A stretch of 31,336 nucleotides of DNA, taken from positions 1 through 31,336 of the IMG/VR virus record IMGVR_UViG_3300027906_000082; one strand, 5' to 3'. The notes beneath the pieces were generated by a model. That model was not told the origin of the DNA, did not search any database, and saw only the letters and a program-made list of their open reading frames with translations. The DNA is from a virus. Below are positions 18,463 to 21,461 of the stretch, piece after piece. The number at the start of each line of letters is the position of its first letter. Position 1 is the first letter of the stretch. The position numbers and the translations under genes were made by a program.

Positions 18463-18540
18463 GATACTAAGTGCACTTAGTACTATGTGATACTAAGTGC
18501 ACTTAGTACTATGTGATACTAAGTGCACTTAGTACTATAT
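18463..18540. repeat. Three tandem 26-bp iterons, each with an 18-bp perfect palindrome
   Basis: Units 18463-18488, 18489-18514 and 18515-18540 are identical except for one base in the last unit. Each contains the perfect palindrome TACTAAGTGCACTTAGTA (18465-18482, 18491-18508, 18517-18534). A degenerate fourth unit (18541-18566) keeps only the right half. The array lies between a leftward promoter and the first codon of the replication operon, so it is in the transcribed leader. It may bind a dimeric regulator or initiator, or fold into three RNA hairpins. Confidence 0.9.
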
Positions 18541-18934: not shown

Positions 18935-19022
18935 TTATTGCACCTATCAACGTAAATCCGATAATTATGCACCCACAAAATATTCCAAGATAAACTAAAT
19001 CTAATACGTCTTTATTTTTCAT
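18927..19022 (-). CDS. Single-span membrane peptide, 31 aa
   Basis: ATG at 19022-19020 follows a GAAGGTGAAG ribosome site and lies about 30 bases downstream of a strong leftward promoter. The peptide is a short charged head (MKNKDVLD) followed by one transmembrane helix (LVYLGIFCGCIIIGFTLIGA). A longer in-frame start at 19151 would run through the promoter and is unlikely. A tiny early membrane protein; possible roles include superinfection exclusion or membrane signalling, neither shown. Confidence 0.55.
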   Translation of the reverse strand: MKNKDVLDLVYLGIFCGCIIIGFTLIGAING

Positions 19023-19050: not shown

Positions 19051-19079
19051 AGTATAACAAAATTTTTAAATGTAGTCAA
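19051..19079 (-). promoter_or_regulatory. Leftward sigma70-like promoter
   Basis: Minus strand TTGACT (complement of 19074-19079), a 17-base spacer, then TATACT (complement of 19051-19056). A near-consensus pair at ideal spacing, back-to-back with the rightward promoter at 19090-19118. It drives the three tiny genes 19022-18612 and perhaps the operon beyond. Confidence 0.8.
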
Positions 19080-19089
19080 ATAAAAATAG

Positions 19090-19118
19090 TTGACATTGTT
19101 TTTATTATCTGTTATACA
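19090..19118 (+). promoter_or_regulatory. Rightward sigma70-like promoter
   Basis: TTGACA at 19090-19095, a 17-base spacer, then TATACA at 19113-19118. Only eleven bases separate its -35 from that of the divergent promoter. It drives the 92-aa gene at 19151. Confidence 0.85.
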
Positions 19119-19150
19119 ATAGACATCTTTAACAAACAAGGGAAAATACA

Positions 19151-19429
19151 ATGATTAAAATTGAAACTTTAAGTACAGATGACGGAACAGACGGTTACCG
19201 TTTTCGCGTCTATCTTTTGTCTAAGTCTATTTGTTCTGGGATTTTCCGTAGGCATCCGACCAAGAACAAATGGCTAAAGTTTGCTAGGTTAAAAGTTTTT
19301 AATCAGTTTAGCATCGGACATAATACTTTGTATGTTCAAAGATTAAATGCTAAAAAATCCAGAAGAACTAGTAAAACTTTTGTAACTAGGCAAACAAAAT
19401 GGCTAGCATTTCCACAAATTAATTTTTAA
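19151..19429 (+). CDS. Very basic early protein of unknown function, 92 aa
   Basis: The first gene rightward of the divergent promoters, with its own promoter (19090) and terminator (19450). Strongly basic throughout: GIFRRHPTKNKWLKFARLK, then LNAKKSRRTSKTFVTRQTKW. The N-terminal strand-like part (IKIETLSTDD; GYRFRVYLLSK) and basic tail suggest a small nucleic-acid-binding protein. No family is recognised. Its position beside early promoters fits an early host-takeover or regulatory protein; this is inference. Confidence 0.7.
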   Translation: MIKIETLSTDDGTDGYRFRVYLLSKSICSGIFRRHPTKNKWLKFARLKVFNQFSIGHNTLYVQRLNAKKSRRTSKTFVTRQTKWLAFPQINF

Positions 19430-19449
19430 TAAACTGTAAAGGGTAAATG

Positions 19450-19485
19450 GACAATGTGTAAAATTAATTACACATTGTCTTTTTT
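19450..19485 (+). terminator. Intrinsic terminator after the 92-aa gene
   Basis: A perfect 12-bp stem (GACAATGTGTAA at 19450-19461 with TTACACATTGTC at 19468-19479), a 6-base loop, then six T residues. An excellent rho-independent terminator. Confidence 0.9.
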
Positions 19486-19487
19486 AT

Positions 19488-19516
19488 TTGACACGGGGTA
19501 TTGTTTATGGCATATT
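19488..19516 (+). promoter_or_regulatory. Putative promoter of the 61-aa/221-aa unit
   Basis: TTGACA at 19488-19493, 17 bases, then CATATT at 19511-19516. The -35 is perfect, the -10 only fair. It begins two bases after the preceding terminator T-run. Confidence 0.55.
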
Positions 19517-19547
19517 TGAATTATATTAAATCAATGGGGAATAAAAT

Positions 19548-19733
19548 ATGTCAATGTTCAAAACAGATGCAGAAATTAGACGGTTTATTAATTTACAGTT
19601 AATGAGCGTTAAAGACGCACCGGATACGTTAAAAGATAAATACTCGATTTATGTTTGGTGCGTTTCAAATGATAGACAAATAAGTTTTATTTTGTCTTTT
19701 AAACAATGGATAGGGAATAAATCATCATGTTAG
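19548..19733 (+). CDS. Uncharacterised small protein, 61 aa
   Basis: ATG at 19548 (a second ATG is two codons on) follows GGGGAATAAA. The product is mixed alpha/beta: TDAEIRRFINLQLMSVKDAP, then IYVWCVSNDRQISFILSF. No family is recognised. Its end overlaps the next start by 7 bases, so it is probably coupled to the Cys-rich 221-aa protein and may serve as its partner. Confidence 0.65.
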   Translation: MSMFKTDAEIRRFINLQLMSVKDAPDTLKDKYSIYVWCVSNDRQISFILSFKQWIGNKSSC

Positions 19734-20392
19734 TAAAAGATGCAATACAATTAGGTAAAATCTCAAATGGTAATACCAAGATGCCGGGAACTACATTTTC
19801 AATAGATGCGTTTGCTTGCCAAACGGGTTCCAAATTAGCAAAGATAAAAGGTACAAGCTGTAATAGTTGCTACGCTAGAAAGTTACAAAAGTTAAGGCCA
19901 AGTGTTGACATGGGGTATAAGTTAAACCTAGCAAAATATAACAAGGCATTGTCAGAAGATAAATTATTTACGTGGGTTTCTGCGATGGTATTTCAAATCG
20001 AACGCCAAGCCAAAAAAACTGGTGTTTATTACCATCGCTGGTTCGATGCCGGTGATTTGCAAAGCGAGAAAATGTTCAAAGCGATTTGTTTGGTTTGCGA
20101 ACGTACACCAAAAATCAAGCATTGGTTACCAACACAAGAACGTAATTATGTAAATGCTTACGCAATACCTGAAAATCTATGCGTTAGAATATCAGGTTCA
20201 AAAATAAACGGTAAAGCCACCTCTAGATCATATGGTGCACTATTGCCAAACTTGTGCACAAGTACAGTACATACCAAAGGCCACGAACCAATTGGCCAAG
20301 AATGTAAAGCTTACACTAGAAATAATAATTGCGGTAGTTGTCGCGCTTGTTGGGATACTACAGTCAAAAACGTATCCTATAAGAAACACTAA
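19727..20392 (+). CDS. Cys-rich phage protein, GP88-like, 221 aa
   Basis: The sequence has NTKMPGTTFSIDAFAC (residues 16-31), GTSCNSCYARKL (42-53, a CxxCYA motif), then a core YYHRWFDAGDLQSEKMFKAI (101-120), HWLPTQE (132-138), and a C-terminal cluster CGSCRACWD. The order Cys knuckle, N-x-x-K-Y, H/R-x-x-DAGD-x-x-S, P-x-I-x-x-x-x-x-T resembles phage proteins grouped as GP88, and more remotely the Gp37/Gp68 (DUF5131) proteins with a GCxxCYA motif. At least nine Cys suggest bound metal, zinc or Fe-S. The activity is unknown; family naming is from memory. It has its own terminator at 20414. Confidence 0.6.
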   Translation: MLVKDAIQLGKISNGNTKMPGTTFSIDAFACQTGSKLAKIKGTSCNSCYARKLQKLRPSVDMGYKLNLAKYNKALSEDKLFTWVSAMVFQIERQAKKTGVYYHRWFDAGDLQSEKMFKAICLVCERTPKIKHWLPTQERNYVNAYAIPENLCVRISGSKINGKATSRSYGALLPNLCTSTVHTKGHEPIGQECKAYTRNNNCGSCRACWDTTVKNVSYKKH

Positions 20393-20413
20393 AATATATT
20401 CCCTGTAACTTGG

Positions 20414-20449
20414 CCCAGTGTTATTAAATTAGCACTGGGTATTTTTTTT
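20414..20449 (+). terminator. Intrinsic terminator after the 221-aa gene
   Basis: CCCAGTG (20414-20420) pairs with CACTGGG (20433-20439). The stem extends three more pairs through one G-T wobble around a 6-base loop, and is followed by TATTTTTTTT. Confidence 0.88.
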
Positions 20450-20450
20450 G

Positions 20451-20479
20451 TTGACGTACTAAACAAACTAGTTTATTGA
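20451..20479 (+). promoter_or_regulatory. Promoter of the 113-aa gene
   Basis: TTGACG at 20451-20456, 17 bases, then TATTGA at 20474-20479, immediately after the previous terminator. A start codon follows 36 bases downstream with AAGGAA upstream of it. Confidence 0.65.
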
Positions 20480-20515
20480 TTAAATTATCTTAAACTTTTA
20501 CAAGGAATATATATC

Positions 20516-20857
20516 ATGGAAACTTCAAATATTAGAAATCTGATTAACGAAAAAAAGCAAAATCGCATGGATTATAATCACGGTTGGTCAATGCGTGGCA
20601 TTTTAAACGAACTAGCAACGGAGGACCGCTTGGACCTAGATCAACTTGTAATTGCATATTATTTAATGATGATTGATGCTGGTAAGCAAAAGTATTTGAA
20701 ATCACCGGACGGGAGCAATCCGCTATCTAGCAGTCATATATATAAAAAGGTGCGTGATATCGTGGGAGATGTTCCAACTAAAAGTGAAATGAAAGCTTTA
20801 ACTAAAAGACTAAATGCTATACCCACGTTACCTTTGGATATTTTAACTTCATCTTAA
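20516..20857 (+). CDS. Uncharacterised early protein, 113 aa
   Basis: ATG at 20516 behind AAGGAATATA. Mostly helical and charged: NIRNLINEKKQNRMDYNHGW, GILNELATEDRLDLDQLVIA, then SSHIYKKVRDIVGDVPTKSE. The K-V-R-D...K-S-E-M-K region could be a helix-turn-helix but is not diagnostic. A monocistronic unit with its own promoter (20451) and terminator (20880), like a moron gene. The function is unknown. Confidence 0.7.
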   Translation: METSNIRNLINEKKQNRMDYNHGWSMRGILNELATEDRLDLDQLVIAYYLMMIDAGKQKYLKSPDGSNPLSSSHIYKKVRDIVGDVPTKSEMKALTKRLNAIPTLPLDILTSS

Positions 20858-20879
20858 GATTTACTGCTTTAATCAAATT

Positions 20880-20910
20880 AAACCCTAGTTTAACCGCTAG
20901 GGTTTTTTTT
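20880..20910 (+). terminator. Intrinsic terminator after the 113-aa gene
   Basis: AAACCCTAG (20880-20888) pairs with CTAGGGTTT (20897-20905) across an 8-base loop, continuing into a T-run to 20910. Confidence 0.9.
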
Positions 20911-20920
20911 ATGCCTATAT

Positions 20921-20942
20921 GCTATTTTAAGCGTGTTATAGC
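20921..20942. repeat. 22-bp hairpin-type repeat, copy 1
   Basis: Arms GCTAT and ATAGC flank the 12-base centre TTTAAGCGTGTT. Copy 2 at 21016-21037 has the same centre but arms GCTGT and ACAGC, so one base pair is changed on both sides and pairing is kept. Confidence 0.75.
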
Positions 20943-21015
20943 GTATCTTTGTCTTTCGGTCATACTGCTATATAAAACATACTTACCTACAACCTAGCGA
21001 GAAATAGCCCTACAA

Positions 21016-21037
21016 GCTGTTTTAAGCGTGTTACAGC
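21016..21037. repeat. 22-bp hairpin-type repeat, copy 2
   Basis: Arms GCTGT and ACAGC around the same TTTAAGCGTGTT centre as copy 1. A looser inverted relative (reverse strand GCTATTTTAAGACGTTTTTA) lies at 21084-21106. Confidence 0.75.
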
Positions 21038-21192
21038 GTGTTTAAGCTTATCAGGTATACTTATACTCTATTTAAATTACATAGCCTAAAAACGTCTTAA
21101 AATAGCCCATAGTTTATTGCCTATTATTTAAGCATATCAAGTATTTGTATATTCTTTACGCACACTGTACACACTGCCTAATTTTTAATCAC

Positions 21193-21218
21193 ACTGTACC
21201 AATATTGAAACACTGTTG
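21193..21218. repeat. 26-bp direct repeat, copy 1
   Basis: Begins ACTGTACCAATATTG and ends AACACTGTTG. Identical to 21265-21290 at 25 of 26 positions; the copies start 72 bases apart. Part of the ACACTGT iteron cluster. Confidence 0.85.
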
Positions 21219-21264
21219 CAAATCAATCACATAGCTCCAGTGTGTTGCATAATTGTCACACAAT

Positions 21265-21290
21265 ACTGTACCAATATTGTAACACTGTTG
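21265..21290. repeat. 26-bp direct repeat, copy 2
   Basis: Second copy of the 21193-21218 repeat with a single A to T change. A further related element, the perfect inverted repeat GCAACACTGTTGC, follows at 21311-21323. Confidence 0.85.
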
Positions 21291-21432
21291 TATATTTATC
21301 ACGCATTTTGGCAACACTGTTGCAATTCTGCAACCTGGTTAGGAACAAATGGAGAACGCAAAACCCCCCCGTGGGTGTGTATTATTATAATAGTTCTCTG
21401 TACACATTTTTTGGAGAATTTAAAAAGTGGGC

Positions 21433-21461
21433 TTGACTTTGTTAACACCTTGTGCTATACT
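21433..21461 (+). promoter_or_regulatory. Strong promoter of the packaging/structural operon
   Basis: TTGACT at 21433-21438, 17 bases, TATACT at 21456-21461. The -10 sits inside the inverted repeat CTATACTTATAG (21455-21466), a possible operator. GGAGG at 21472-21476 is the ribosome site for terS. Confidence 0.85.

Follow-up and report, generated by a model that had tools for sequence, protein, structure and literature searches.

Are phage genes that sit in self-contained promoter-gene-terminator units recent cargo, or can such packaging be laid over genes of long standing? The question is raised by a short interval of the window, by which we mean the whole 31,336-base viral contig that was analysed. 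Structural genes run rightward at the left end of the contig, and a leftward replication module occupies its middle (ribonucleotide reductase, GIY-YIG nuclease, family A DNA polymerase, a DnaB/Toprim protein, DUF932 and DUF3310); the studied interval lies between this module and terS, which is followed by terL and portal. A reading made from the sequence only had seen three promoter-gene-terminator units here, and took them for insulated accessory genes of the moron type. We favor, with a probability of about 0.7, a different reading of the whole: an early gene block that faces right in a marine tailed phage, placed between a divergent promoter and terS with the late operon, in which old genes are accompanied by one exchange slot framed by terminator-promoter cassettes.

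Terminators, promoters and composite cassettes

The interval contains four rightward (+) open reading frames of 92, 61, 221 and 113 amino acids, as first read: p92 (19151..19429), a conserved early gene and the first of a p92-p61-GP88 block; p61 (19548..19733), a small gene immediately 5' of GP88; the 221-residue GP88 family protein (19727..20392); and p113 (20516..20857). The p61 and gp88 frames share 7 bp, which makes unit 2 a two-gene operon.

The three terminators of the sequence-only reading are borne out by sequence, folding energy and a scan, each being a strong rightward (+) signal with a T-run. Terminator 1 (19449..19486; 13-bp stem, hairpin 19449-19480), terminator 2 (20413..20449; 11-bp stem, hairpin 20413-20440) and terminator 3 (20880..20910; hairpin 20880-20905) have folding energies of -16.5, -18.4 and -14.6 kcal/mol and z-scores against shuffles of -6.6, -4.8 and -4.7, respectively; a 6-kb scan found 8 terminator-like sites where 3.1 were expected. 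Among 11 distinct hairpins taken from both cassettes, a script counted 121/121 stem pairs kept, all of them standard pairs, while most stem positions vary and many have changes on both sides, which argues that the terminators are under selection; this covariation supports their being real. The hairpin loop, ATTAATTT, is nearly constant in the cassette terminators. In terminator 1 the loop of the window (19449-19480) is the reverse complement of that in its close relative L003 (731-762) with the stem unchanged, a difference that appears to be a small inversion inside the hairpin.

Terminators 1 and 2 run straight into TTGAC(A/G), with TTGACA (19488) and TTGACG (20451) starting 1-3 nt past the T-runs, and so form composite terminator-promoter cassettes. 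Cassette 1 is made up of terminator 1 and promoter 2 (19488..19516, +; TTGACA-17-CATATT), and cassette 2 of terminator 2 and promoter 3 (20451..20479, +; TTGACG-17-TATTGA). TTGAC comes next after 6 of the 163 T-runs (five T or more) in the window, both cassettes being among the six; in this genome, then, a T-run has a chance of only a few per cent of being followed by TTGAC, and the arrangement recurs in relatives. At the place of promoter 2, TTGACA is found in L003-L009, L011, L019 and L020; at the place of promoter 3, TTGAC is kept in L003, L007, L008 and L018 and lost in L004 (TTGATT) and L013, the latter having a TTGACA some 25-30 nt downstream of the usual place. The two cassettes of one genome are alike (59/84 in L007, 56/81 in L008, with 0/500 shuffles as high), those of the window itself less so (55/93).

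The promoters call for more reserve. Over 6 kb there were 29 promoter matches against 22.9 +/- 5.1 expected, barely above chance, and we therefore base the promoters on position and conservation rather than on consensus score. Promoter 3, whose -10 element at 17-nt spacing matches 3/6 of the consensus, is predicted to be weak, which qualifies the third of the proposed units. Promoter 1 (19090..19118, +; TTGACA-17-TATACA with an upstream TG) is conserved in L003 and is preceded by no terminator; its TTGACA (19090) stands back to back with the TTGACT (19079) of a leftward promoter-like site (19051..19079, - strand; TTGACT-17-TATACT) that heads the replication module and is conserved in L003 and L004. 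Promoter 1 would thus be half of a divergent pair, and the claim that every promoter begins one to four bases after a terminator applies to promoters 2 and 3 only.

Terminators with the ATTAATTT loop and an immediate TTGACA were also seen in many apparently unrelated viral contigs (L107-L217, for example L146, L155 and L176). A pattern scan of IMG/VR gave, among the matches listed, at least 45 that form the hairpin and 75 that do not; the former lie in other viral contigs, with the ATTAATTT loop followed by TTGACA. This mixed outcome tells us just that the loop type is common, and phage terminators at large may often have it.

Terminator 3 has no promoter directly 3' to it. Between it and terS lies a non-coding stretch of about 520 bp with iterated motifs (20911..21432), which ends at the terS promoter-like site (21433..21461, +; TTGACT-17-TATACT), conserved in L003 and L004 and present as a close variant in L008. 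Within this DNA, positions 21145-21334 carry the iterated motif ACTGTACCAATATTG(A/T)AACACTGTTG, a candidate replication origin or packaging site; repeats resembling AACACTGTTG also precede terS in L027. In the leftward module, a palindrome, TACTAAGTGCACTTAGTA, occurs in three copies at 26-bp spacing (18463-18536) and looks like a set of operators. Rfam matches in the region all fell below gathering scores, mostly microRNA models placed on a palindrome, and were set aside as chance.

An old block, probably turned toward the late operon

If the units were morons, that is, three independent accessory units, recently gained and self-expressed, the possession by each of its own promoter and terminator would be readily explained. 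A profile search over related loci, however, showed that many relatives carry homologs of p92, p61 and GP88 in unchanged order. In distant relatives the block lies mostly leftward, on the strand opposite terL, closely spaced and opening a leftward early operon without cassettes; L046, L067 and L033 have this leftward block in the same gene order with gaps of 64-75 nt. The insulation would accordingly have come later than the genes, and p92, p61 and GP88 are an ancestral early block, not recent cargo.

The contig L027 (580-1758) has p92 leftward and GP88 rightward, and appears to be an intermediate between the two arrangements. On the terL tree the loci with a rightward GP88 form one clade, reached by one change (support 95/91), in which ten rows, including the window, make up a subclade with 100/100 support. 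No cassettes were seen outside this subclade except in close relatives (for example L005, L009, L019 and L020) that are off the tree, having no usable terL. On the simplest account, GP88 would have been flipped toward the late operon together with p61, followed later by p92, with the cassettes arising between them.

It could then be argued that the signals serve insulation and nothing else, having arisen only since the block was flipped toward the late operon, and that any variation of neighboring genes is ordinary turnover, unaided by cassettes. The occurrence of cassettes only where p92 and GP88 are both rightward fits such a view, as does the close, cassette-free packing of the leftward relatives. 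Against it, in L027, where GP88 is rightward, the sole terminator of the run stands at its end, so rightward facing alone does not require a cassette. We regard this explanation as unlikely, though it is the one we take most seriously besides our own; the breakpoints described below weigh further on it.

The sequence-only reading had left all four proteins of the interval without a known function. The 221-residue protein can be assigned to a family, being a clear match to PF17338 (GP88; E 3.2e-19, 70.1 bits against a cut-off of 24.4) and also to phrog_1392, with conserved cysteines near both ends; the function of the GP88 family is not known, and a search for PF17338 or "gene product 88" in the literature found nothing on it. 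The protein is core in the clade, and the member in the window is unremarkable except for its location. Seven cysteines (C31, C45, C48, C193, C202, C205 and C208) are invariant in 23 aligned sequences; C31, C45 and C48 are suggestive of a metal site, and a metal or iron-sulfur site may fairly be inferred from the cysteines. The structure model (pLDDT 90) has as its relatives GP88 proteins and, farther off, a Gp37/Gp68-like protein; searches of the PDB by sequence and by fold gave no relative (no match at E <= 0.001). An identity as a radical SAM enzyme was considered and rejected on this PDB result, the BFVD rows for radical SAM or Fe-S oxidoreductases being weak (E 0.066 or worse). Bacterial genome contigs from several phyla (L231-L248) also carry relatives of GP88, with 30-47% identity.

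Gene replacement within fixed borders

The picture is different between cassette 2 and terminator 3, which we call slot 3. The window and L003 have 98% terL identity, yet carry different genes here: identity between the two is 78-98% over positions 18961 to about 20510, falls to 32-60% across p113, returns to 86% at terminator 3, and is 90-98% from 21001 onward. The alignment breaks just 5' of the p113 start codon and resumes at terminator 3, which is conserved in L003 next to a different gene. Such breakpoints at the borders of the slot speak against turnover unaided by the cassettes.

Including p113 of the window, slot 3 holds five unrelated occupant sets among the relatives: the others are an 87/72/68-aa family (L003, L004, L008), a pair of 58 and 98 aa (L007, L016), one gene of 109 aa (L018) and one of 127 aa (L013). 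Compared pairwise, the occupants gave no match better than E 0.03, the 87/72/68-aa family apart. The ten-row subclade contains near-identical contigs, and the occupants therefore correspond to about five independent changes. A leader, AAACAAACTTAAAGGAGAATACTAATG, is common to L007 and L018 up to the start codon, before genes that are unrelated, which is again hard to reconcile with insulation only; L008 has the same leader with one base changed. In L008 there also survives a 25-nt stretch that matches exactly the 3' end of the 58-aa gene, which is whole in L007; it is a trace of an earlier occupant. The shared leaders and this remnant are traces of replacement within fixed borders.

The sequence-only reading had proposed that relatives be compared for presence and absence of the units, as opposed to core, invariant genes. 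The comparison divides the interval: p92 and GP88 are conserved and come near to being core and invariant, p61 is missing in some relatives (it is absent from L004 and L007), and slot 3 varies. On this evidence slot 3 behaves like accessory cargo, whereas the slots of p92, p61 and GP88 do not. The moron interpretation suits the varying occupant of slot 3 and nothing else in the interval, and as an account of all three units we consider it improbable.

The same interval had been put forward as a site of anti-defense or host takeover, for which p113, p92 and GP88 would be the effectors. A variable early slot that encodes small uncharacterized proteins is a usual place for genes of this kind, and slot 3 is such a place. 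The proposal is otherwise unsupported. The tested proteins had no match in PADLOC (best E 0.034), a library of defense and not of counter-defense systems. p113 is an orphan, with no relative in viral contigs, phage records (tblastn to E 1), Pfam, PHROGs or NCBIfam; structure prediction, which had been suggested as a check, gave for it an all-helical single-sequence model of moderate confidence (pLDDT 71), and neither this fold nor that of GP88 had a match in the PDB. The wide, core distribution of GP88, which extends to bacterial genome contigs, speaks against a specialized counter-defense role. We hold an anti-defense or takeover cluster to be very improbable.

Returning to the reading we favor, each of the two composite cassettes, one behind p92 and the other behind GP88, would halt transcription and immediately start it anew, and terminator 3 would close slot 3. 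In this way early transcription would not run on into the late operon, and the units could be expressed independently of one another; that the promoters are active, and early, we infer from the sequence. The borders of slot 3 carry common regulatory sequence on either side, and replacement is seen to be limited to what they enclose. Since the borders are common on both sides, the gene between them would be exchangeable by recombination in the borders, a mechanism to which the breakpoints point. An incoming gene would still land behind a promoter and ahead of a terminator, and p113 would be merely the current occupant.

Comparison with known devices

The promoter early stem-loops (PeSLs) of T4-like phages are reported to mediate gene shuffling between close relatives (Arbiol, 2010; Comeau, 2014; as described in PMC4503421), and a high PeSL density marks the regions of PeSL-driven shuffling (PMC4503421). 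The likeness to our cassettes lies in the composite of early promoter and stem-loop between small early genes, of which there are two here, conserved in relatives, and in gene shuffling among close relatives, here in slot 3 only. The differences are that the present phage is marine, tailed, smaller and from another lineage, its terL relatives not being T4-like (the nearest isolates by terL are Vibrio phages and Pelagibacter phage Baldr, at about 57% identity), that two cassettes per genome are far below the numbers reported for T4-like phages and do not amount to a high density, and that the order here is terminator first, then promoter. With the composite motif and the shuffling present and the density and phage group different, we call the cassettes PeSL-like, not PeSLs.

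The haloarchaeal virus HGTV-1 has a conserved promoter and inverted-repeat motif before many of its ORFs, for which transcription control and gene shuffling have been proposed (PMC3950731). This motif too is PeSL-like, and HGTV-1 likewise encodes a GP88-domain protein; it is, however, an archaeal virus with a TATA-box-like promoter, and its motif is spread over a large region of the genome. With phage morons the interval shares units with their own promoter and terminator and, in slot 3, a varying occupant, but slots 1 and 2 contain the ancestral conserved block. In our judgment this is a known type of device in a new setting, in which the evolutionary history of the slot's neighbors is clear. 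A more far-reaching proposal, which we consider unlikely, is that ATTAATTT-loop cassettes serve small marine phages widely as a means of gene exchange, one that is independent of the PeSLs of T4-like phages; recombination in the cassette borders would carry early genes from phage to phage, pre-insulated.

On our reading, core genes can come to have an insulated, moron-like layout through late rearrangement, and layout alone is thus no evidence of recent cargo. If our reading is right, cassette-framed gene exchange extends beyond the large T4-like genomes to small marine phages, in a single-slot system whose simplicity would make it testable; slot 3 would then allow small early phage genes to be collected by way of their borders, without homology to known proteins.
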